A stretch of DNA of 64,000 nt from Conus ventricosus. Lineage: Eukaryota > Mollusca > Gastropoda > Neogastropoda > Conidae. A program made the translations under genes and the position numbers. The stretch spans positions 10,564,598 to 10,628,597 of the forward strand of contig CM031628.1 in assembly GCA_018398815.1 (NCBI GenBank), read 5' to 3'. This document shows positions 1,130 to 60,650 of the stretch, piece by piece. Position 1 is the first letter of the stretch, and every line of letters begins with the position of its first letter. The notes beneath the pieces are model-generated. The model was given only the letters and a program-made list of their open reading frames with translations. It searched no databases and was not told where the DNA came from.

Positions 1130-4056
1130 ATGCAGTAATTGCCACAAGCGCCAACGACCGGGCTGTGGAGGACCATGTCTTATAAAGGAGTAATCGTATT
1201 GTCCCGTTACTGCGCACAACGAGAACCCCATATTCAACTGCCAAATTCTATTACCTTTACGTCACATATAAAAATCTAAATATCCATAACAACGCTGAAA
1301 CGTTCTCGGTGGGTGTAAGGGTCAAAGACACACACATATGACTTTGGCGCTGGAAGTTCAATGAGCTGACGCCTTCAGGGGTAATGACCTCATGAACTTG
1401 CATATGATTAAACAGTGTGGTCCTCCGTGTCAAGTGGCTGCTTATTACGGTGACGTCACCACAAACATTACAAAAGGCCGACAGTCTGGTGGAAAAAAAG
1501 TTAGTGAGTAATATTTCCTTCTGGATAGTGGTATTACATGTTGTAATAATCGTTGTCATGATAAAATAGAAATGAAAAAAACTAAAAGGACGAGAAAGAT
1601 GGAGATAATTCCACTCCACCTTGAAGTGAAACGTTTATGCAAATGCCTTAGTTTCATGATGGCATGCTCAGCGTCTCGATTTCGGACGTTGCATTTTCAT
1701 GTTGGAAAACGAGAATTTTTGTTTGGGCTTTCTTTGTGTCGAGACAAAACTGATTTTTAAATGATTAACAACCTGGGTGCACTTTAAATTTAGTTTTAAA
1801 AAAAGGGAAATGTCTGTTGCGTGCAAGGACTTGCCTTCTAGCTGTAGCCTACTTCAGGGACATTAATTGTTTTTAGTCAGCTGAAACGCAAAGATTAGAG
1901 AACGGGTGTCAGTGTATGTATGCTTCCGTGCGATGGAGTTGACCAGACCTGCCAACATCAGACATTAGTGAGCCATGTAAAGGAGGTACTCCAAGTAATA
2001 AGATGACTGATGTCTGTTTCGATTTAGTGTCGTAAACATTAAACAAAAAGGTGTAACTGTCAATAGGAAAGGAAGAAAAAAAGAGAGTGGATCGCGGTAG
2101 GACACAGCTCGGCATTTAAATTTTCAATGTCAAGCAAGTCCTCCCCCCCCCCCCCCCCCCCCCCCCCCGCATTCTCTGCTGACCACGTTAAAATAGACAA
2201 GTAAGGTGCACAGAGCCACCAACAGAAGGCAAGAGGAGAACGGGCCTAAAAGGCATAAAAATGGATTGGGGGGGGGGGGGGTATAGATCTTTTCTCCACC
2301 TCTCCGGACCTTGAGCAGAAACATTTAGCTTATGCATTTATAAATGAATGGTTTAGCGGGGGCAGGGGGAACGAGAGCATACCGAAACATTAAGTCTTTG
2401 CTTGTCAAAACAGAGTTACATTTTAATATTGGGTGATGGACCTTTACACTGTGAAATACATCACAATCAAGGGGAGGGCCCTAAGTGCTAACCTGGAAAT
2501 TTGTATATTTTTAAAAAAAAAAAAAAAAAAAAGAAATATTTTGCCCGGGAATCGGAAAGCAAAACTAGCAGCCAGTAGACGCGCTGGTCGTGCGATTGGG
2601 ATGATCAAAATAGATATTGAGGAAAAAAAAGTTGATAGAAATTGGAAAGGCAGAGTGAGAAAAATATATGAGTTGAACTGTTTGACCTCATTCTTATGTG
2701 AAAACCAAGCCTTTGATCCAGAACGATGTTGCCATTTTGGCAACACTTCCTGCTAAAGACTCTTGAGACAAAAAGTGTTGAGAGAATGACAATACTAAAC
2801 AATTAGGATGTTAGAAGAGCATTTTAGAATGTATGTCCTTCTTTTGGCAGTCTTACAGATCAGTTTCATCCATTTTTACCAGCTTGGAGAAAGAAGAGAG
2901 CAGTGCTTCTTATGAAATCACGTAAGATTAACATTTTCGGGTTTGGTCCATTTCCCTTCCATCGTGTTACTGCATTTCAGCATTTCAGACTGGAACAAAG
3001 CATCCAGGAGTCAAGCTAAATTTCCTCAACTCAAGAGGTCAAGCTAATTAGGAGATTCAAACACAAATACAGAAATCTCACCCCATCAAGAAGTTGTGAA
3101 ATAGTATATTTCAACATCGTATAATTGAAGTGTGACCCCCCCAGCTTGAATCTGCGAGCTGTGCACCAACCTCCGTACTAGAATAGTAAGCAAATGTATT
3201 CACAAGGTAAATATCAATGTCAAAATTAAATTAAGCCGGAAGTTTGTTGGTGATTTGTTGTCACAACAGCTTCTATAGTCTATGAGGCCACTAACTTTAG
3301 ATGAGGACCTTTGTATGATTTAAATAAAAAAGTAAATGATTCTTGAACCGTCGCCAAGCTAATTTTTGCTGCCAACACTAGACTTTTGTTCTGACTGGTT
3401 CAGTACACATAGCACGCACAAAGAAAAACACACACAGGGGGGCCCTTGAAACAGTACTTCAGGGGCCCCAGAAAAAAAAGCCCCCCCCCCTTAAGAGACC
3501 GACCCAAATATTGAAGGGGCAAAGTTTCAAGAAACTGTCTTTCCTTGGGTCTGAACATGTCTTTTCCTGGCGTATAGATGCATTAACATGAAACAATGAA
3601 ATGCTGTTGCAATTTCAAAGTTGATGGAGGACGTTATTTTTTTTTGTTGTATTAATATTTGGGAAATAGTCACAGGCCACTAGAGTATTTCATTTGTTAT
3701 TAATTGCATTAGACTTTCAGTTTTTTTGTGTTGTATACACATCCAATGAAGGACGTAACCATGTCAGTTTTCAAATTTATGATCAAAAGTGGTTGTGGTC
3801 CATATTGTTTTTTGTACCGTTAGTAGTATCCGAAGAGCGCCTGGACTGATGATTTTCTACCGTGTCATTTTGATATGAGATAGGTTATCATGAAGGAAAA
3901 AAAGTAAACCCAATCAATATCATGTTTGTTGCTTAAAAATGTCAAAGATTGTGGGGACCATATGGTCCCCTGTGTGGCCAGGTGTATTACATGGCCAAGT
4001 CATCCCACATTACTGCCATGGGGTACTTGCATGTTACGCTGATCTCTCTCCCCCAG
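1130..4056. other. Intergenic or intronic sequence, nothing recognised
   Basis: Mixed-composition sequence with homopolymers (26 C at 2143-2168, a G run near 2270-2281, an A run near 2514-2532). I see no conserved protein motif, no RNA gene and no transposon end here. It could be intron of the gene suggested by the exon at 4057-4140. Confidence 0.5.
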
Positions 4057-21867: not shown

Positions 21868-22281
21868 TTTTTTCTTTTCTTTTTTTTTCTTTCTGCGTAT
21901 GCAGGCTGATACTCCTGCGGACACTCCCTGTATAGCCAGGCAGTGGAGTTTTGTGTGTATGACCCTTTTCTATCCCGCCATTAAGGCAGCCATACTCCAT
22001 CTCGGGGAAGGTGCATGCTATGTGTCACGTGTCATCCATACCAACGGCCAAACTGGCCTTCTCTTCCGAAAGTTGGTGATGGGATTTTTACGTGTGTGCG
22101 AGATGTTGTGCGTGCGTTCACACACGGAACCTCGGTTTATAGTCTCATTCGAAGGACTGTGTGGGGAATGGAGTCAGAACCAATGTTAACTCCGAGGGAA
22201 AAATCCCCCTATACCGAAATTCGAACCCGCAACCCCAGGATCACGAGTCCGGCGCTCTACCAACTGAGCTATTCCGGCCCC
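21868..22281 (-). mobile_element. tRNA-derived SINE, left-arm copy
   Basis: Reverse-complement counterpart of 39712-40126, with the tRNA-like head near 22200-22281 and the A-rich/GAAA-type tail near 21868-21895. It was inserted before the inverted duplication, since both arms carry it at the same place next to R1. Confidence 0.8.
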
Positions 22282-28810: not shown

Positions 28811-29932
28811 CTAAGGAAAAAAAAATATTTTGAGTAAACTGCTGTATGGATACCATTTTAGTTGGAACTCGTATTGCTTCATCTCTAATTCATGTGCATA
28901 TTTTTCTATCTTGTATTTGATACGCAATTCTTTCAAAAAGACATTTATGTTTGGCTTTGTTTTGTTTATTCTGCATTTGTATGCATGAAATTTTCCTAAC
29001 AAAATACTAAGGTCAAATACTTCATCAGTTTTACTGTTGTCTTCTGTGCCAAAGAGGACACGTTCAAAGTTTAAATGAAGACGTTTGCAGTTTCCACAGT
29101 TTTCTTTCATGACTTTCTCTAATTCCCGCCAAAAAAGACATGAATGTTGACAGGTAAATAAGTAGTGTTCTATTGTATCTTTCTCTTTTTGGCAGAAATT
29201 ACACAAACTACTGTCAGCAATGCCAATTTTGCTTAAGACATTATTTGTCACCAGAATTCTATAGCATATTCTGGTTTGAAACCATTTTAATTTAACTTCT
29301 TTTATTTTCATTATTTTTTTCAACACTACTTCCCATCAATCGGTGTATTATCGAATGTCTTTTCCCATCGCATGAAAGGCTTGATATTTAATATTTCAAT
29401 TTTTTTCTAGAAGCAATTCATAGTATACCTTTGATCCTCCTTGTACATTAACTATCGACTGTACAGCTTTACTCATTTTTTCGGTTGCATTATCTTGAAT
29501 ACGGATATTTCTACTCCTCTGATATTTTTTTTATATGATTGTATACAACTTGTGTATTCTAAAAAGTTTGTTTTTGTTCCGACTTTTTGGATATAAATGA
29601 TCTAAAAGGCAGGAAATTGCCGTTTTCATCAAGTAATCCTTCACTAGATATACTATTATTTTGTGTCCATTTCTTGTAATGAAAAGTCTTGTTGGCAATC
29701 TTGAATTTTTTCATTGTAGAATATGGGCTCTGATGCAAGTTCATGCCCTCATTTAATTCTATTTGATTACAAAATTGACTATATGCGCCGAAAATATATC
29801 TCCAGAAGTCGTTAGAACTAGTTTTACTAAAAAACTGCGGTCCACTTTTATGAATTGATTCTAATTCTGGACATTGTGATAGCAACATTACCACCCATTT
29901 TTGTTTTTTGGTTAATATCTTCCTTATCCACA
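28811..29932 (-). mobile_element. LINE-B pol C-terminal fragment (zinc-knuckle region)
   Basis: The minus strand encodes the end of a non-LTR retrotransposon polymerase. SGPQFFSKTSSNDFW-type sequence is followed by the post-RT zinc-binding motif CNFCQKEKDTIEHYLFTC (C-x2-C-x8-H-x4-C), then a Lys-rich tail. Two frames (29559-29894 and 28811-29326) are separated by decay. The upstream part continues at 32397-32500 after a 2.46-kb insertion. The layout resembles Tx1/L1-like LINEs, but clade placement is inference. Confidence 0.75.
29924..29932. repeat. Left 9-bp direct repeat TTATCCACA (target-site duplication)
   Basis: Matches 32397-32405 exactly. Removing one copy plus the intervening array joins the LINE-B frame (…ALKLMWIRKIL before and KKQKWVVMLLS after), which supports a true target-site duplication. 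Confidence 0.75.
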
Positions 29933-32500: not shown

Positions 32501-33129
32501 TTCATTCGATGCCCAGCTGACTGCAAGATGCTATATTCAGGCTGTCAACCTAGTGAAACATATTTTCTTAAGCACGCTGAAAATGCTTTTAAATATTCGT
32601 TTACAAATCATTTATCAGACGAAAAATATCTATCTTTTAGGAATTTAAAGGTTAAACCTGGTGGAACATCTTAGAGCAGGGTTTTTCATGAAGTCTACTG
32701 TAATGTGTTTCGTGTCTTGTGTCATGGTAAGCCCAACACTTCAGAAGGACGTGTTTTTATAGTGGTGGTACGTCACAGGGAATGCACCACAGAGCGTCTT
32801 CATCTTACGTAAGATACGGGAAGGTTTAAAAAAGACTGGCCTGTGTGCAATCGACACAAAACTATTTCTTTTTTATGGCCACTAGAGGGAAATTGCAAAA
32901 TTTCTTGAAATTTAAATCAGATTTGAGCTTTTATTATCTTTTTTGGTGATCAAGTCCTCTTGTCAGCATTGGACATAAATCTGAGATTTGGATTTAAGAT
33001 TGGTGTGAGGAATAGAAAACTTACTCCAGTCAATATTTGTGGCATTCGTGGCAAGTTGATCAGCCACCTCATTGAATCAAATGCCTACAAGACTGGAAAC
33101 CCAAGAAAAAACTACGTTGTAACCATGTA
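32501..33129 (-). mobile_element. LINE-A RNase H C-terminal half and tail
   Basis: The minus strand near 33030-33127 reads GYNVVFSWVSS, then after a stop FNEVADQLATNATN. These match the end of the RNase H domain of I/jockey-type LINEs (FCWVPSHVGI…NE.AD.LA). Downstream (to about 32640) decayed frames fit the region after RNase H, including a Cys/His cluster. The first half of the same domain lies at 37325-37770, beyond the 4.19-kb insertion. Confidence 0.6.
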
Positions 33130-33182
33130 GTCCAGTCAAATTTTCAAAAAATAGCCTATAACCTTAAACAAATTGCAACAAA
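33130..33182. repeat. Left terminal inverted repeat of the 4.19-kb element
   Basis: About 53 bp; shares 13 outer and 17 inner bases with the reverse complement of 37280-37322, with a spacer differing in length by about six bases. Confidence 0.65.
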
Positions 33183-33955
33183 AGAAATTTCACCTGATTT
33201 GAACTTGTTGAACATCTGCCAGTACCACTTCAAAATCAAAAAGAAATATATGGTGCAATGAATTATGTACGTTTGTTTAAAGAACATACCCCCAAGCTGA
33301 TGTTACAAGAACCGGAAAACAGACAATCTGCTTCAGAGATCCCAGTAAATACAATGCAAATGGGGGGAAAATGATTGAAAATATTTACAAATGGTTGATG
33401 ATTTTAAAAAACATAAAAGTTAAACAGTACATAAAGATATACAGGTTTTCTTCATTTTTATCAACAAAAGTGGGCAAATATTCTTCGTGGATTTGAGGAA
33501 ATATTTCTCTTTTTACTGTTGCTACTATGTTGTACACACAATTCATGAAGAATAAATGCAATAGACAGATTTCTTAGCACGTTTTGTGCAAAGAAAAAAC
33601 ATAGGAGGAGTCAACCAAACAAACATTTATGAAACAGGCTTTCTTTTTCATCCATACCCCCTAACTTTCAGACTGCAGACCATCAGCCTCTGTATGTAGT
33701 TAAGTTTGGAACATATCTATGGCTGCTTGTCCTACCACAGTGTTGAGACAAAGTTGTTACCAATAAAATGTGGTAATGACAGGACATGTTTCATCAAAAA
33801 CACCAGTTTCTTTATGTTTCAATGGTGCCTGATTTCATGTAACAGTTTAATTAATTGTCCATGAAAAATCAAAATGACATAATTCAGACATGAACGTCAG
33901 GCTGACAGGCACGCACTTGCAACACATAAAAGTACTGACCTGGATGATTTCACTG

Positions 33956-36900
33956 TCAATGTTCATCTTCTGACTCGGAGTCTTCAACATCAGCCATAGT
34001 GATGATATTAGTACAGTCCTCACCTCTACAGTCACCACATCCCGTTGAGCACACCAGTCCATGTCTCCTACAGCTACACAAAGAACTTCCGCAGCCAGAT
34101 TTGCAGTTGCATCGCACAACATTCAACAGTTTTCTGGTGCCACTGGTCTGTCAGTATAGATAGGAAGAAACAGTCCTTGTTGATTCTCCCACCCCCATTG
34201 TTTTGAATCTTTCATTGTGTTCCCCAGATGGATCCATGTCTGCACTTGAAAGTATGTCCGGAAGGAATGAAACTTTGCTGCAGACGCAGTTGGTGGCAGA
34301 GCATTGGGTTTTGTAGACTTTGATGCAGTTGATATTTTCTGGACATACTTCACAAATCTCAGGTCATCCAAAGTGTCATCTTTTTTTCCACCATAGAGAC
34401 AAACAATAGCTTTTTGCCCAGCAGCAGCAATCTCATCGTGGTTTGCTTCTGTTGCAAAGACATCAGCCTGCTTTCTGAAGTGTTCTGATTTTATTTTTTT
34501 CACTGGAAGGCTCTTGCCGATGGAGAACAACCTGCTTGTGGTGTCACACCCACTTATGGCATGGGCAAACAACAATCTGGTGTACACGTCTGACTCAAGA
34601 ACCTGTTGTACCTCACTGATCTTCCAAATTCTAGACTTCTTCCCACCAGGACAGAAATACACGTCATGATGGTCATTTTTGACGTGGTACAGTAACATAA
34701 CAAGAAGGTCTGTGTCCTCTCCTACAACTGCAACTTTGTTTTCTTTGGCAGCCTGCAGGGATTGCTTGATTATGAGGCAATCAGCATCATCATGGGCATG
34801 GATCGTTTCAAATCCACTTTTGTACAGTGCATTGCTCAAAAGGTTGATGAAGCGTTGTTTGTTGTGCACGTTTGACAGAAAAGCTTCTTTTGAGTCAGAG
34901 AAGACCATATTCTCTGTGAAGCACACTTCAACTCCAATATGTCCAGTACTTCTGCGCAGATGTGCAGCATCTTTGATGGTAGAACTGGTTTCATAACCAT
35001 CAAAAACAATGATGGCCTTCCTGTGGCAGAGTTGTGGTCTGCATTGTCTCCCACAAACTGAAGGTCTTTTTCTTGGGTGATTTCCGGAAGGTCTAAACCT
35101 TGGGTGACAGCTGCATTGAGGTGGAATTTCTGTACTTCTGAATATGAAGAGCTGAACCCAAAATTTACTTAACGTATCCACCAAAAATTTTTGATGCAAA
35201 AGTTTTTGTGCATCTGCACTGCCAGGTGGATCTGAAGTGGAGCAATGCATGTGTTTGGCCCGGTTGCTTGAACGATGCATTGTCCAATGGATGCGATTTT
35301 CAGATCTGTGTTTTTACCCCTGATGATATCTTTAAGCAATGTCTGAAGAGTCACAGGCAGGAAATCAAGCTGTAAATCCTTGCACAACTGACCAGAATCT
35401 GGGTACACACTTCTGTCACAACAGATGGACATTATGTCACTTCTAATTAGAGCAGCTGCTGCTCTAATCAAGCGAGTACATTCACTGTCACTGTCATTCT
35501 TTTTGTGTTCTTCGTAGAACTTGTGAAGGATGTTGGACGCGGCTGTCTTTATGGTCACAACATCTGATTTTCCTTCTAACTCTGAGATAGATATACTGTC
35601 ACCAAAATGTTCAAGCAGCATTTTCTTCATGTAAGGCACACTGTACGCAGAACCCACATTTGACTCATTGCACTGGTCCAGGGCATCTCCCATCATCCTA
35701 ACAAGGTCACACACAGTGACCTGCTCTGTGTAATTGTTTTCTAGATAGGAAACAATATCCTGAAAGGCAGCATGATACGCCTCATCTTTTTGGTCTGCCT
35801 GCTTTCCCCAATTTGATTCTTTTTCTTGCTGGCATATCATCAGTTTCTAAAAACATTCGGGGAACATGTTTTCCTGTTCGAAAGTTGGTACTGCAGATAC
35901 TGTGGTTACCACATCCTGGGCAAAACAGTCCTGCAAAAATTCTAATCTAGCCTTAACTTTCCGTGACCCCTCGTCACCTCTGCTGCTGCAAACACCGGCC
36001 ACAGTCTGTTGGAATTGTGTTGTTGTCACTGATGTCAGACCTATACAGGTCTTGTGTCCGCCTCTACGTGACCATTTTTCTCCTTTCAGGCAGAACAGGC
36101 ATTGGGCTGCTGGACTGTATGCAGAATCTACAGTCCGAAGTCTTCGTTTTATGCTTTTTTGAGGAGACTGATCATTTTGCCTGCTACGCAGAAACTGTGT
36201 AATAGCGTTTATATTGGTGTATTCACACCGACATTTAGCATGAACAAAACTGCCAGTTGAAGCAACACTATCATCACCTCGCTGAGCGCTTGCCTTGTTG
36301 ATCCCAGCACACCCTTTGGTGTGTTAGAATTACTTTCCTGTCCTGGCTGCAAAATCCCAGCTTGCAAATGATGCAGCAATCCTTTTCTGGACTCTGAAAT
36401 TCAGAATTAAAATGGCTTTGAGAAAGCTTTCATTATTGTTAGCCTATTGTTACTGTCATTATCACGTTGTTGTTGTTGTTTGTTGTTATTACTAATTACG
36501 TAATCATTATACAAATATTATTTGGGTGATATTATTATTATTGTTATTATCATTATTTTTTTTAAAAATGTTATTATTCTTATTATTTTATTATTATTGT
36601 TATCAATCAGGTTTTGTTTCAATTTTCCGTTTGACTTTTGCCCAATTCACACATTCCATGAAAATTGGAGTTCATAAACGTTTCAAATAAGCCACAACAA
36701 TTACCACGCAACCACAAGTACAAGGCATGTGTGTGCAATAGAGTGTAGTTCGCAGATACAGTCATTATTCCCTTTATTCCACGACTTCTTGTTGTACCGA
36801 ATCTACTGCTGCGTGCTATCAGTTAAGCCACTTCACTTACTCGGGCAGGCGAACACGTGTTTACGTGTCAGCTTCGGCCGAATGCCAGTCTAGTTTGGCC

Positions 36901-37067
36901 TGTAGTGTCAAAAGTTATTGAGTAGTATCATAGTGGTATCTTAAAATCATACACAGACATACAAAGCAAAGTTAACTTATCAATAAGAAATTGGTACATT
37001 ACCGTGAATATGAACATGAGGGGCTCTGGTAATTGTTTGAATCAGCGCAGTCAGTCTCCGCCATCAT
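33956..37067 (-). CDS. FEN1/XPG-like nuclease with zinc modules and CXC tail (intron-containing, frameshifted)
   Basis: Exon 1 starts at ATG 37067 (MMAETDCADSNNYQSPSCSYS) and ends at donor GTAATG after 37003. Exon 2 starts at 36393 after acceptor TTCTGAATTTCAG and ends at TGA 33956. Modules in order: Cys pairs CCIICKLGF, HAKCRCEYTN, CLFCLKGEK…HKTC and CPGCGNHSICSTNF; a helical segment ending in MHKNFCIKNFWW-type sequence; FVGDNADHNSAT; a nuclease-like part (VFDGYETSSTIKDAAHLRR; DADCLII; VVGEDTDLLVMLLYH; FAHAISGCDTTSRLFSIGK), matching the acidic motifs and helix-2-turn of FEN1/XPG; and a CXC-like tail (CNCKSGCGSSLCSCRRHGL, Cys-rich to 33990). At least four one-base shifts interrupt it. From memory, this family is widespread and multicopy in invertebrates but functionally uncharacterised. 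A segment between FVGDNADHN and VFDGYE may be deleted. Confidence 0.7.
36394..37002 (-). other. Putative intron of the nuclease gene with (ATT)n microsatellite
   Basis: Bounded by GTAATG at 37002 (minus strand) and TTCTGAATTTCAG at 36394. It contains ATT/GTT repeats at about 36440-36605. Summing codon phase across the junction leaves a one-base mismatch, consistent with the other indels in this gene. Confidence 0.45.
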
Positions 37068-37279
37068 CGCGCGCCTGCGGGCAGCGTTGGAAATTTCCTG
37101 CCGTTTTCTGCTCAGCGCGTTCATTCAGCTTTCCGTCCACGGACATTAAAAAAATTCTCATTCTCACGGTTCGTCTTACACTTTCGGATTAATTACGTTA
37201 AAACGGAACCATCTTTTACTTTAGATTTTTCTGTGCACGAATAACATGATCGTTTCAGTTGATTAACGCTCTTGAATGA

Positions 37280-37322
37280 TTTGTTGCAATTTGTTTGACG
37301 TCATGTATTCATTTCACTGGAC
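37280..37322. repeat. Right terminal inverted repeat of the 4.19-kb element
   Basis: The reverse complement reads GTCCAGTGAAAT, a 22-bp spacer, then AAACAAATTGCAACAAA, mirroring 33130-33182. Confidence 0.65.
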
Positions 37323-37324
37323 TA

Positions 37325-38940
37325 ATGAGATTTTAGAGGTATTCATTTTTTTTAAATCCCCAGTTGATAATGCTTAAGATTATAGCCAGTACCAAAGCAA
37401 AACGGAAGTCATACAGAATGATACATTGTTTATGTTTTGATTTAGAGACTGCTTGAAATGTCAGAACCAAAGCCGTGAGCTCAGCAATGTAGATGGAGCA
37501 GACTGAGGGAAATTCGATTGAACATTTCTGAGATGAAGAGGTTGAACAAGAAGCAACAAAACCAGATTCTTTTCAGATCTGGGGCCATGAGTAAAATCCT
37601 CTGAAAGGATGGAATTCTAGAATAAGATTCAGCAAAAGTGCCTCGTTTGCCACAGAACTGATGGTGTCTTCCACAAGAGGCAAGAACAAAGCCGATCGCA
37701 GTTTGGAAAGTCCACAGTGAATGTCTAGAAATTTGGACTAGTCTCACGCCACTTCAATGTCGATATCTGCGTTGGAAAGTAAACAGATTACAAGGGGCAG
37801 AATTGCTCTGGGATTTTCCTCAAAATCGCTCCTGAATTTCGGTTGCAGTACACATTTGTAAGCAAGGATTGGGGGATTCCTAGAAGAGGTTTAGACACAA
37901 GTTCAGAGAATATTTAGACAACTATCGGAGGGAATGCTTCATAGCATCTACATGTGCACTGTACATATAAGCAGTGGAAAATGTTCACAGAGCCACATCC
38001 CTTTATTGTGTATAGGATTCACTGTTCTGTGGTAAGAGAATGTTACAGAACCACCGATGACACAGTAGTCACCTTGTTTAGAGAAATTAGAGCCATGTTA
38101 AGATGGAGAGGAGCTTCCTTATCAGTACTCCCATATTCATGTGTGTGCTGTATGTTCTTTCTGACAAAAAAAAATTGAAATGCTGAATGAAACCTTTGAA
38201 GCTGAGGTTTTGTCGACAAAAATTCCCAACGGCTAGAATGGGTGATTCATCCAGACGAATTTTGGAGTCATCAGAATTTTGTAAAGAGATGTGAAAGTGG
38301 ATACATTTAGTTTTTGTTGTTGTTGAACATGTTCGTGATAAAGAGGGAAACTGGCTCTGAAAACCTAGGATATATAATCAACAATATTACATTTTTCACA
38401 TGGTGTTTACGCTGTCGCTAGGCCAGAAAAGCTACAACATGTTGATTGTTCATAAAGGTGTTGCAGATAGTGATTTCAAAATGGACATCTATAGAATTGT
38501 CCTTGTGCTTATGGAAACAATATTGGTCTTTGCCAAAGGCCATCAGTTTCTAGCTTCCACAATCAAGAGTTGACCTTCTTTTCTGTTAATTTACAAGATT
38601 GAAGATTACTGGTCAGAGCATTTGGACGATGATACGCAGGACTGGTCGGGTGTTTCTAGATTTGGAAATCTGAATAATGAGAGCTTTCTACAAAGAGAGC
38701 AGGGAGTACTTTGTAAGCCCGATAAGACTGACTTTCAGACAAAAATACAAACAGTTTCTTGAGACGTTTCAACACTTAGAAATCAAAATCATGAAGGCAC
38801 CGTTCTTTTGTTTAGAGTTTTAAAACAATTAGAAAATAGATCTAGTTGCAAAGCGAGACGACTGCAGGCGGAAATCTAAACAAATCTTAAATAAATGTTA
38901 GCGAACCGCCCAGAGAACGTGGAAAAAAACGAGTCACAAG
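37325..38940 (-). mobile_element. LINE-A upstream part (RNase H N-terminal half and decayed RT)
   Basis: The minus strand near 37380-37510 encodes SIYIAELTALVLTFQAVS and SKHKQC, the conserved second segment of a LINE RNase H domain (AEL plus helix). Higher coordinates up to the inverted-repeat arm are too decayed for a firm frame; I assign them to the same LINE only tentatively. Confidence 0.45.
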
Positions 38941-39711: not shown

Positions 39712-40126
39712 GGGGCCGGAATAGCTCAGTTGGTTTAGAGCGCCGGACTCGTGATCCTGGGGTTGCGGGTTCGAATTTCGGTATAGGGGGATTTTTCCCT
39801 CGGAGTTAACATTGGTTCTGACTCCATTCCCCACACAGTCCTTCGAATGAGACTATAAACCGAGGTTCCGTGTGTGAACGCACGCACAACATCTCGCACA
39901 CACGTAAAACCCCATCACCAACTTTCGGAAGAGAAGGCCAGTTGGCCGTTGGTATGGATGACACGTGACACATAGCATGCACCTTCCCCGAAGATGGAGT
40001 ATGGCTGCCTTAATGGCGGGATAGAAAAGGGTCATACACACAAAACTCCACTGCCTGGCTATACAGGGAGTGTCCGCAGGAGTATCAGCCTGCATACGCA
40101 GAAAGAAAAAAAAAGAAAAGAAAAAC
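39712..40126 (+). mobile_element. tRNA-derived SINE
   Basis: The head resembles a tRNA: A box TAGCTCAGTTGG at about 39723 and B box GGTTCGAAT at about 39768, with a seven-base anticodon-like loop CTCGTGA (CGT, Thr-like). The 3' half of the T stem and the acceptor pairing are missing, so it is not a functional tRNA gene. A ~330-bp body follows, ending in CATACGCAGAAAG and an A-rich (AAAAG)-type tail at 40100-40126. Transcription by RNA polymerase III is inferred from the boxes. Confidence 0.85.
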
Positions 40127-41982: not shown

Positions 41983-42051
41983 CACAACAGCAGAATCAAT
42001 AACAATAACAACAGTAACAACAACAACAACAACAATTAACCAAGACCTTAC

Positions 42052-42422
42052 TTGAAATCTTCATTTCCAGAGTTGGTCAGACCCACATACACATCACGAG
42101 CTCGGTTGCGTGCCCATACCACGTGTTTCACGGCTGCCATTTCCTTGTTGGAATTAAAACTGGCCAGATAGCCACCTTCCTTGCCACACCTTGTTTTAGC
42201 CTCGTAGTAGGTCAGTGGCTTCGCTGGCTGGGCCAATAGATAGCAGCGACCCTCCACAAGAAATCTGCCATGGTCACACAGTTCATGGTGACACTGGTTT
42301 TCATCTTGAGCCGAGTCACATTCAACGATCAGATTGCAGGAGAGATGAGGTTGAAAGTCAGTCCAGCATGGTGCGGAACAGTTCCACGTAGTATCAGACA
42401 CTTTCCGGGGGATGGAAGATTG
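42052..42422 (-). CDS. Exon B: LDLa-like repeat plus start of a C-type lectin domain
   Basis: Acceptor CCACACAG before 42422 and donor GTAAGG after 42052; the 371-bp exon is open in phase 0. The product contains an LDL-receptor class A-like segment (DFQPHLSCNLIVECDSAQDE, then NQC) followed by the start of a C-type lectin fold: CDHGRFLVEGRCYLL, YYEAKTRCGKEGGYLASF, then DVYVGLTNSGN. The remainder of the lectin domain (WIGL-distal part, last Cys) must lie in a later exon, which I do not find. Such LDLa-lectin receptors are common in molluscs. They are probably extracellular and may bind carbohydrate, but the ligand motif is not visible here. Confidence 0.85.
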
Positions 42423-42437
42423 CTGTGTGGTACAGGA

Positions 42438-48304: not shown

Positions 48305-48778
48305 TCATTCTATCAAATAAGTTATTGTTTTTGCACGTTTTGTTTTGTGGGTGACAATGGGCGTGGGGCACATGGTTTGTTTTTTTCTGCACTGACATCT
48401 CTTCGTCATGCAAAGACCTTGGCAAGAGCATTTGGTAAAGCCTTGCCCACCATGCCTAGAATGAAGTGTTGTGATGCGTCTGAACGGCAGTACATTGATT
48501 TCATCAACCATGTCCCGTGACATTATCTCGTAGTCTGCGTTAATGACCTGATTTCTTGAAAACCAACCCTTCACGATGCCATGCTTTGTACCAATTTGGT
48601 AGTTGTCATTTCGAACTGCCATGACAACACCGGGTACATTCCGACAATCTAATCTACCCCTGTCAAACTCACTAACAGGGACAAGAACTACATCATTTTC
48701 CTGCAAAGGTTCAAGCTTTTCCTGAGTTGTGTGCAGCATTTCAGCTCTGCTTTTTTTCCTGACCCTTAGTTGCATCAC
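48305..48778 (-). CDS. C-terminal domain of the Ginger-like integrase with Cys-rich tail
   Basis: A 157-codon minus-strand frame. NDVVLVPVSEFDRGRLDCRN, VPGVVMAVRNDNYQIGTKHG and VKGWFSRNQVI match the post-integrase domain of KRBA2/SCAND3-type proteins (…P.PD.DRGR.D.RN…Y.IGTK.G…YSR.Q). It ends in a compact Cys cluster KCSCQGLCMTKRCQCRK…C, probably zinc-binding. This is the least damaged part of the element; the upstream coding region continues, frameshifted, to about 49990. Confidence 0.8.
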   Translation of the reverse strand: MMQLRVRKKSRAEMLHTTQEKLEPLQENDVVLVPVSEFDRGRLDCRNVPGVVMAVRNDNYQIGTKHGIVKGWFSRNQVINADYEIMSRDMVDEINVLPFRRITTLHSRHGGQGFTKCSCQGLCMTKRCQCRKKQTMCPTPIVTHKTKRAKTITYLIE

Positions 48779-48839
48779 GTCTGCAAGTATCTAAAGAGAT
48801 TGCTATGTTCCCAAAACCTGTGCATCGGTTTCTGGAACC

Positions 48840-58584: not shown

Positions 58585-60650
58585 AGACTCGACAGATTTT
58601 TGGATAATTGAGATGGACTTGAACGGAGTGACGGGAACCATTCCTTCTCTGAAACGGTGGATGGAATCTTAATTACGTATGTACTAGTATGATTTTTGCT
58701 GTGTGACCCCCTCCCTTTCCGCCTCTCCTCCCCCCCCCTCCCACCACCCCCCCCCCCCCCCCGTTGGCCCTAAAATTCCCAACTCCCCGTGCTCCCCGCC
58801 CGTTCTTAGTCCGTTCTCCACCCTCATTCTACTTCGCACTATTAAAGGAAAAGTTAAATACTTTATACCCAGATAGAGAGCATTTCGTTTTTTTTCACCC
58901 TTCATACTATGGCCCTGTGTCTTCGCCCCTTAGATGCATGTTTTTAGAGCCTGTGACTAATGTCTTCCTTAGTGTCTTTTGCCTGGTGCCTGCGCATGAC
59001 CAGATGCGCGTTTTTTTCTGAGCTCCACATAAATTTCGATAGGAAAATTTTTGACGCCGTGACTAAGATTCCTTAATTTTGGGCTTTGTTATGCAACGTA
59101 TTGTTGCCCAAAGAGAACGGGCAATATTTTGTCTGTTGGATTTAGTGATGTCTAGAAGTTTCTTGAATTTCTCCGAGTGTTTATATTGGTATCGCTGACA
59201 TCTGTGTTGACAACTCGCCCACTGACGAACTTTCAGTTTCACTTTGAATTTTTCAGTTCCCTTCATTGTCACTATACTAACGTATCTACATAATCAAACT
59301 GCACGTTCTTGTAAGTATTATTTCTTCTTCTTATTTTTGATTCGTATTTTTCTGATATTTGTACATGACCATGCCAAACAAAGAAGGATCACATGCTAAA
59401 CCTTCGAGAGGATCGACTTCAAGTTCTGTTGATACAGGTCCAAACGGTGCAGTAAAGACGAGAAGAAATACCGACAAAACGTCAGTGCTAGCCGCATGGC
59501 AGTGCATTTATTGTGATGTGGCCTGTGATGAAGATGAAAATTGTATTGAATGCTTTGTGTGCAAAAATTGGGCACATCAGAAGTGTAGCGGATTGAACGC
59601 ATCAGCATTCGGGGCGTTATCCGATCCCCGTCAGCCTAATTTACAATGGGTATGTCAGCCGTGTCTTACTGATCAAGACCAAATAAAGTCCAGGCAGGAT
59701 AACAGACTGGATAAACTACTCGATCTCATCCCGCTGGTTCACTCTTTAAGTGCTCGGCTTGAAAGTCTGGAAAAGGGTTGATGGGTGAAAAGTTGAGGAA
59801 AAGATCGAGGAGGTTGTGGACAGGAAACTAGGTGAAATGTTGGAAGAAAAGTTGGAGGTGGAGAAGAGAAAAAAGAATGTTGTTATTGTGAACCTGAAGG
59901 AGAGCGCTAAAACAGTCAATTCAGAGAGAAAAGAGGAAGATCTCGAAGCTGCCAAATCCCTGCTTGCCAAACTTGTTGATGTTGAGGCAGATGATGTTAC
60001 AGAACCTGTCAGCTGGGAAGGGAAGGGGGAAATAAACCAGGGATGTTGAAGTTACACTCAAAACTGAAGAAAAAAAGAGAGAGATCGTTAGAAAAGCTCC
60101 AGATCTGAACAAGAACGTCCCAATCAGCAAAGACCGAATTTATGTGAATCCTGACTACAACACAAAAAACAAAGAGAAATCAATCAGGCTCTCAGAGTTG
60201 AGAAAAAAAAGAAGAAGTGAGGCAGGCGAACAAAACCTAGCAATAAGAAACGCAAGATTGTGGTTCTGACAAAGGGGGCTGGTAACGACCAACGAACAGG
60301 TGGAGGCCCAGAGTCTGCCACAGACCCCAAACCAAGACAGAACTGACTGAAGAATACAAACCATGTAAATAGTGTAAATAGTAGACAGAAAAAAGGAAGA
60401 TTTTTCAGGGAAAGGAAGAAGGGGTTACAGTTTTATACTCTAATGTTGATGGTTTACTGAATAAAAAAGATGAGTTCTTTACAAGAATAGAAGAGATCAA
60501 GCCCAGTGTTATAGCACTGACGGAAATAAAACCGAAGCACCCAAATGTTTTGAATGAATCGGAGTTTGCCATCCCTAATTATGACATGTTTGTAAACAAA
60601 AACCAGTTAAGAGGTATGTCGAGAAGTCAATGAAATGCGCGAGAGTGTGA
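58585..60650 (+). mobile_element. LINE-D copy A: 5' region, ORF1 (PHD) and start of ORF2 endonuclease
   Basis: A ~770-bp 5' region (with a poly-C run near 58744-58762) precedes ORF1. ORF1 is followed by the beginning of an APE-type endonuclease (YSNVDGLLNKKDEFFTRI, then IKPSVIALTEIKPK) at 60424-60620. The order PHD finger, coiled coil, RRM-like region, endonuclease is that of CR1/L2-group LINEs. The endonuclease is cut after about 65 residues where copy B begins, so RT is missing. Confidence 0.8.
59365..60360 (+). CDS. LINE-D ORF1: PHD-type zinc finger protein (frameshifted)
   Basis: Start at ATG 59365 (MTMPNKEGSH). A PHD-like Cys4-His-Cys3 finger spans about residues 48-98: CIYCDVACDEDENCIECFVC, NWAHQKC, WVCQPC. 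A coiled coil follows (EEVVDRKLGEMLEEKLEVEK). Then comes the RNA-binding-like region of CR1/L2 ORF1 proteins: KNVVIVNLKES, DLEAAKSLLAKLVDVEADDV, IVRKAPDLNKNV, RIYVNPDYN, LSELRKKRR, NLAIRNARI. One-base shifts near 59781 and 60045 and beyond break it. By family knowledge the protein binds the LINE RNA; the role of the PHD finger is unknown. Confidence 0.78.

Follow-up and report, generated by a model that had tools for sequence, protein, structure and literature searches.

The window analysed here, a 64,000-nucleotide stretch of the gastropod Conus ventricosus genome (contig CM031628.1, positions 10,564,598 to 10,628,597), contains a DNA transposon copy of 4,197 bp that is very probably a recent, internally deleted and non-autonomous insertion belonging to a family of nuclease-bearing Academ (AcademX-type) cut-and-paste elements. 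Membership in Academ fits the make-up of the element and its relatives, and does not come from direct sequence similarity to a reference Academ. The window element is not a complete copy, and transposons of its kind have already been published.

The limits of the element were established by comparison with other copies from the same assembly (3.52 Gb, 12,740 contigs). At least 59 matching pieces were found, 40 of the 362 first-look candidates being scored. Thirty-two distinct places were compared, namely the window copy (L001), 20 places from one retrieval and 11 from a second, while L002-L008 are repeats of seven among them. Copies that reach an end terminate exactly at window positions 33128 and 37324 or a few bases away, so the pairing of the window ends is not due to chance. 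The element and its ends comprise:

33128..37324, no strand: whole transposon copy, 4,197 bp, with ends common to other copies
33125..33127, no strand: left 3-bp target duplication, ATG
37325..37327, no strand: right 3-bp target duplication, ATG
33128..33141, plus strand: left terminal inverted repeat (TIR), TAGTCCAGTCAAAT
37311..37324, minus strand: right TIR, one mismatch against the left
33166..33182, plus strand: left inner inverted repeat, AAACAAATTGCAACAAA, 17 bp, putative binding site
37280..37296, minus strand: right inner inverted repeat, 17 bp, putative binding site

The two TIRs (33128-33141 and 37311-37324) pair at 13 of 14 bases. In one set of 17 copies from this genome, TAGTCC begins 16 left ends and GGACTA closes 16 right ends. 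The original prediction had recognised both the inverted ends and the inner repeats, which are retained, and had placed the limits at 33130 and 37322 between flanking TA dinucleotides. Because the other copies show TA inside the repeat, TA is the start of the TIR and both limits therefore move outward by two bases. TA was accordingly rejected as target duplication, the actual flank being the 3-bp ATG. The expectation that other copies would share both ends was borne out, at these corrected limits and not next to TA flanks. A 23-mer from the left end, allowing at most two mismatches, was found at 28 places in the 3.52 Gb (23 of them exact) and its reversed control at one; several of the 28 are truncated copies (L032-L034, L039).

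Both ends could be read at 22 of the 32 places, and an exact 3-bp duplication flanks 19 of these (15/17 in one set, 3/4 in another, plus L037, which has one additional base in its left TIR). No 4-bp duplication was observed among 17 two-ended copies. The misses are L010, which sits in poly-C (CCC/CCA), L014, where GAG fits if one TIR base was lost, and L029 (TTA/ATA). One end each of L014 and L026 was placed by a 2-base extension of the blastn match, and the ten places with one or no readable end (L023-L025, L027, L032-L034, L036, L038, L039) were excluded. Mean divergence among copies is 1.1-1.3% in three segments (18, 21 and 19 copies), hence the family moved recently. The window copy is itself a young insertion, but a crippled one.

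The gene of the element lies in pieces on the minus strand:

37003..37067, minus strand: possible first exon with ATG and GT donor, read from sequence only
35030..36393, minus strand: N-terminal zinc modules, helical region and first transposase motif (DNADHN); the start assumes an AG acceptor
34123..35019, minus strand: nuclease part with VFDGY, DAD, EDTDLL and GCDTTS, lacking the first strand and first Asp
33956..34150, minus strand: cysteine-rich CXC-like tail (Pfam TCR model at E 0.31, below cut-off)

Segment 35030..36393 is interrupted by an in-frame stop at 35847-35849 and by shifts of frame near 36320 and 35190, and the frame changes again near 34130 in the nuclease part. The minus-strand gene, with its CxxC pairs, VFDGY, GEDTDLL and GCDTTS motifs and cysteine-rich tail, had been described correctly beforehand, but it is broken. 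Pfam searches of the four gene pieces gave nothing above cut-offs, and no PDB match to P0002 by phmmer was better than E 0.35. The read-through of the window protein finds 18 relatives; residues 420-1400 of P0004, a 1,421-residue Mytilus edulis protein, find 420. Among the best 120 of these 420 matches are proteins of Mytilus, Mercenaria, Patella, Littorina, Porites, Holothuria and Dysidea, some named 'Tesmin/TSO1-like CXC domain-containing protein' and two '5'-3' exonuclease'. Of 133 retrieved proteins, 99 are 1,300-1,600 residues long. In the longer relatives a single protein combines N-terminal zinc modules, a DDD/E-type transposase interrupted by a large helical insert, a nuclease of the Exo1/FEN1/XPG fold and a CXC-like tail. 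AcademX proteins have an XPG-type nuclease and a Cys8 zinc finger; in the relatives here, the N-terminal CxxC pairs and further cysteines are conserved. The GCDTTS family had been tentatively tied to a DNA transposon, rightly in that the motif is part of the transposase protein; its make-up fits known Academ-type elements and not a distinct class.

Predicted folds were compared by re-aligning Foldseek candidates with VIA-align 2, from which the fold matches come; Foldseek itself found no match under E 0.001 with either model. Model residues 653-967 are predicted to adopt the fold of the Exo1/FEN1/XPG nucleases, with just 11-13% identity in the Exo1 rows, and a sequence-profile comparison finds Exo1 at no better than E 0.071. 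The acidic residues are conserved, the Asp of DGGSLL, VFDGY and DAD being present in 50/50 rows. The predicted fold and these residues in the relatives support the FEN1/XPG-like nuclease of the original prediction; in contrast to FEN1, Exo1 and XPG, however, the nuclease here forms the C-terminal portion of a transposase. For the DDD/E region, the P-element transposase is the closest match in predicted fold. Both the P-element and Hermes (hAT) transposases appear to share its DDD/E core and the helical insert before the last Glu, at only 6-9% identity, whereas the 3-bp duplications and the fused nuclease are features of the element. P and hAT elements produce 8-bp target duplications. The P superfamily thus agrees in the predicted fold of the transposase core and disagrees in the length of the duplication.

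The Academ superfamily and its AcademX lineage are reportedly due to Kapitonov and Jurka in 2010 and Kojima in 2020. In the relevant passage of PMC10045372, AcademX elements have 3- or 4-bp duplications and a nuclease, AcademH elements 9- or 10-bp duplications and a helicase. Passages of other papers count Academ among the DDD/E superfamilies (PMC9587614), mention a RecQ helicase in Academ (PMC3627910) and treat the AcademH helicases of fungi (PMC10799480). The family described here shares with AcademX the TIRs, a DDD/E-type transposase joined to a nuclease and, by that passage of PMC10045372, the short duplication. The transposase was recognised by conserved motifs and fold in the longer relatives and by tblastn in L010. 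The Exo1/FEN1/XPG fold points to a nuclease and not a helicase, as in the AcademX of PMC10045372, and Pfam at E 0.01 assigns no helicase family to any of 34 relatives. The exact 3-bp duplication at 19 of the 22 two-ended places agrees with the 3 or 4 bp of AcademX. The 6,350 bp of L010 lie in the range of Academ, for which a passage of PMC10294476 gives a mean of 5,565 bp over 100 curated bivalve elements. Among molluscs, the same passage has Academ nearly confined to bivalves, whereas some relatives come from non-bivalve animals, and two gastropod relatives misfit this restriction if they are Academ. The window copy further departs from Academ in being deleted and frame-broken.

It is improbable that the family belongs instead to another DDD/E superfamily (P-like, hAT-like or KDZ), or to an undescribed one that acquired a nuclease. 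The predicted P-element fold, the CXC-like tail and an Academ placement that follows from make-up argue for such an origin; the duplications are nevertheless 3 bp, against longer ones in P, hAT and KDZ, and the AcademX make-up, in the published passages, fits. As regards KDZ, Pfam at E 0.01 gave only DUF6589 (PF20231) in 7 of the 34 relatives (best E 1.3e-6; below the Pfam cut-off in P0004), no comparison being aimed at KDZ. The literature search found no paper in which the whole words 'Academ' and 'XPG' occur together, and none that mentions DUF6589. An IMG/VR pattern search gave 24 stretches fitting the pattern and no relative, and the phage records gave no match.

L010, the most complete copy and the only one of the 32 places spanning the whole length, shows what the window copy lost:

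35023..35024, no strand: deletion joint, 2,158 bp of L010 absent, 2-bp overlap at the joint

The absent stretch corresponds to L010 positions 1898-4055 and codes for most of the DDD/E-type transposase and the nuclease start. The window copy aligns to P0004 only at residues 37-426 and 1089-1417, so that about 660 residues were lost, while L010 matches P0004 through this gap (tblastn), including MIDMSASD, VTFDQP and DLVIEQVLM, in broken frames. With a 211-base probe across the joint (40 matches scored of 43 candidates), the window alone matches end to end and the other 39 on one side only; no other place shows the joint. This copy cannot make its own transposase, and it looked nuclease-only because most of the transposase part had gone. 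The reported lack of a DDE domain reflects the private deletion and not a family property, a DDD/E transposase region being present in L010 and the relatives.

The original prediction had suggested that the gene family may be the cargo or mobility enzyme of a distinct DNA transposon. A class mobilised by the FEN1/XPG-like nuclease alone, with no DDE enzyme, is very unlikely. The window copy, coding for a nuclease and hardly any transposase, would suit it. It is rejected for this family by the DDD/E transposase of L010, which retains the missing region, and of the full-length relatives; moreover, the joint is private, and in many other copies (L009, L011, L012, L015) it is the nuclease region that is absent, while their ends and duplications are still good. 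That a host gene or a domesticated nuclease lies by chance between inverted repeats can practically be dismissed: the nuclease motifs remain recognisable, but the frame is broken by a stop and shifts, the first nuclease Asp is gone, the ends and duplication are intact, and copies elsewhere are closely alike.

Other deleted forms recur in the genome: ~717/3346 (L011, L014, L018, L019), 717/3746 (L009, L012, L015, L028, L031), 717/3727 (L016, L023, L029, L030, L037), 2620/3474 (L017, L020, L021) and 2288/4091 (L013, L025). In 13 measured '717' copies (L009, L011, L012, L014-L016, L018, L019, L023, L028-L031), 37-664 bp of non-L010 sequence fills the gap in place of the nuclease region; in these forms the original segment was therefore replaced and not cleanly deleted, and some ancestral bases may be missing from L010. 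The longer fillers resemble one another in the part of the comparison examined. Mobilisation in trans is suggested by the occurrence of the same deleted forms at separate places, with individual duplications wherever these can be read. A 72-bp (24-codon) unit that spans a portion of the first transposase hairpin (TLDGRGTF..GMGTIAVVTPGTKTA) forms tandem arrays in L038 (2379-5007, about 36 units) and also in L023, L026, L030, L031 and L037; L038 lies on a 15-kb contig, and an assembly effect is possible for its array. The right breakpoint of the window deletion (L010 element position 4056) falls within this unit.

From these observations we infer a mechanism in which a complete protein, supplied in trans, would bind the element ends, with the inner repeats and zinc modules taking part and the zinc and CXC modules contacting DNA. 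The DDD/E centre would cut and join the ends with a 3-bp stagger, and the flap-type nuclease might trim 5' ends or flaps at excision or insertion. Tentatively, two nucleases could act within one polypeptide, a P/hAT-like DDD/E core performing strand transfer and the fused flap nuclease making or trimming the 5' (non-transferred) strand, thereby setting the 3-bp duplication. The multicopy animal GCDTTS family, often annotated just as 'Tesmin/TSO1-like CXC domain-containing protein', can be read as the transposase protein of nuclease-bearing Academ-type elements, for which the precise ends, the length of the duplication and a map of the domains are now given. Through a private deletion, a transposon can pass for a nuclease-only class. 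With copies that differ by about 1%, the family offers a workable system to probe the role of the fused nuclease.

Read on the minus strand, the flanks of the element (32978-33127 and 37328-37570) resemble the decayed RNase H region of a retrotransposon, where the element presumably inserted; Pfam found nothing in the one flank piece searched. Elsewhere in the window, an open reading frame at 48308-48790 (minus strand) has a cysteine-rich CXC-like tail, KCSCQGLCMTKRCQCRKKQTMC, with no Pfam match at E 0.01. A retrotransposon zf-RVT domain lies at 28814-29335 (minus strand, E 1.4e-07), a C-type lectin domain at 42051-42437 (minus strand, E 2.6e-07) and a weak PHD finger, below cut-off, at 59356-59778 (plus strand, E 0.00059). 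Two Rfam tRNA matches, at 22212-22278 (minus strand, 35.7 bits) and 39715-39783 (plus strand, 33.2 bits), neither called by ARAGORN, are perhaps tRNA-derived short interspersed elements (SINEs).
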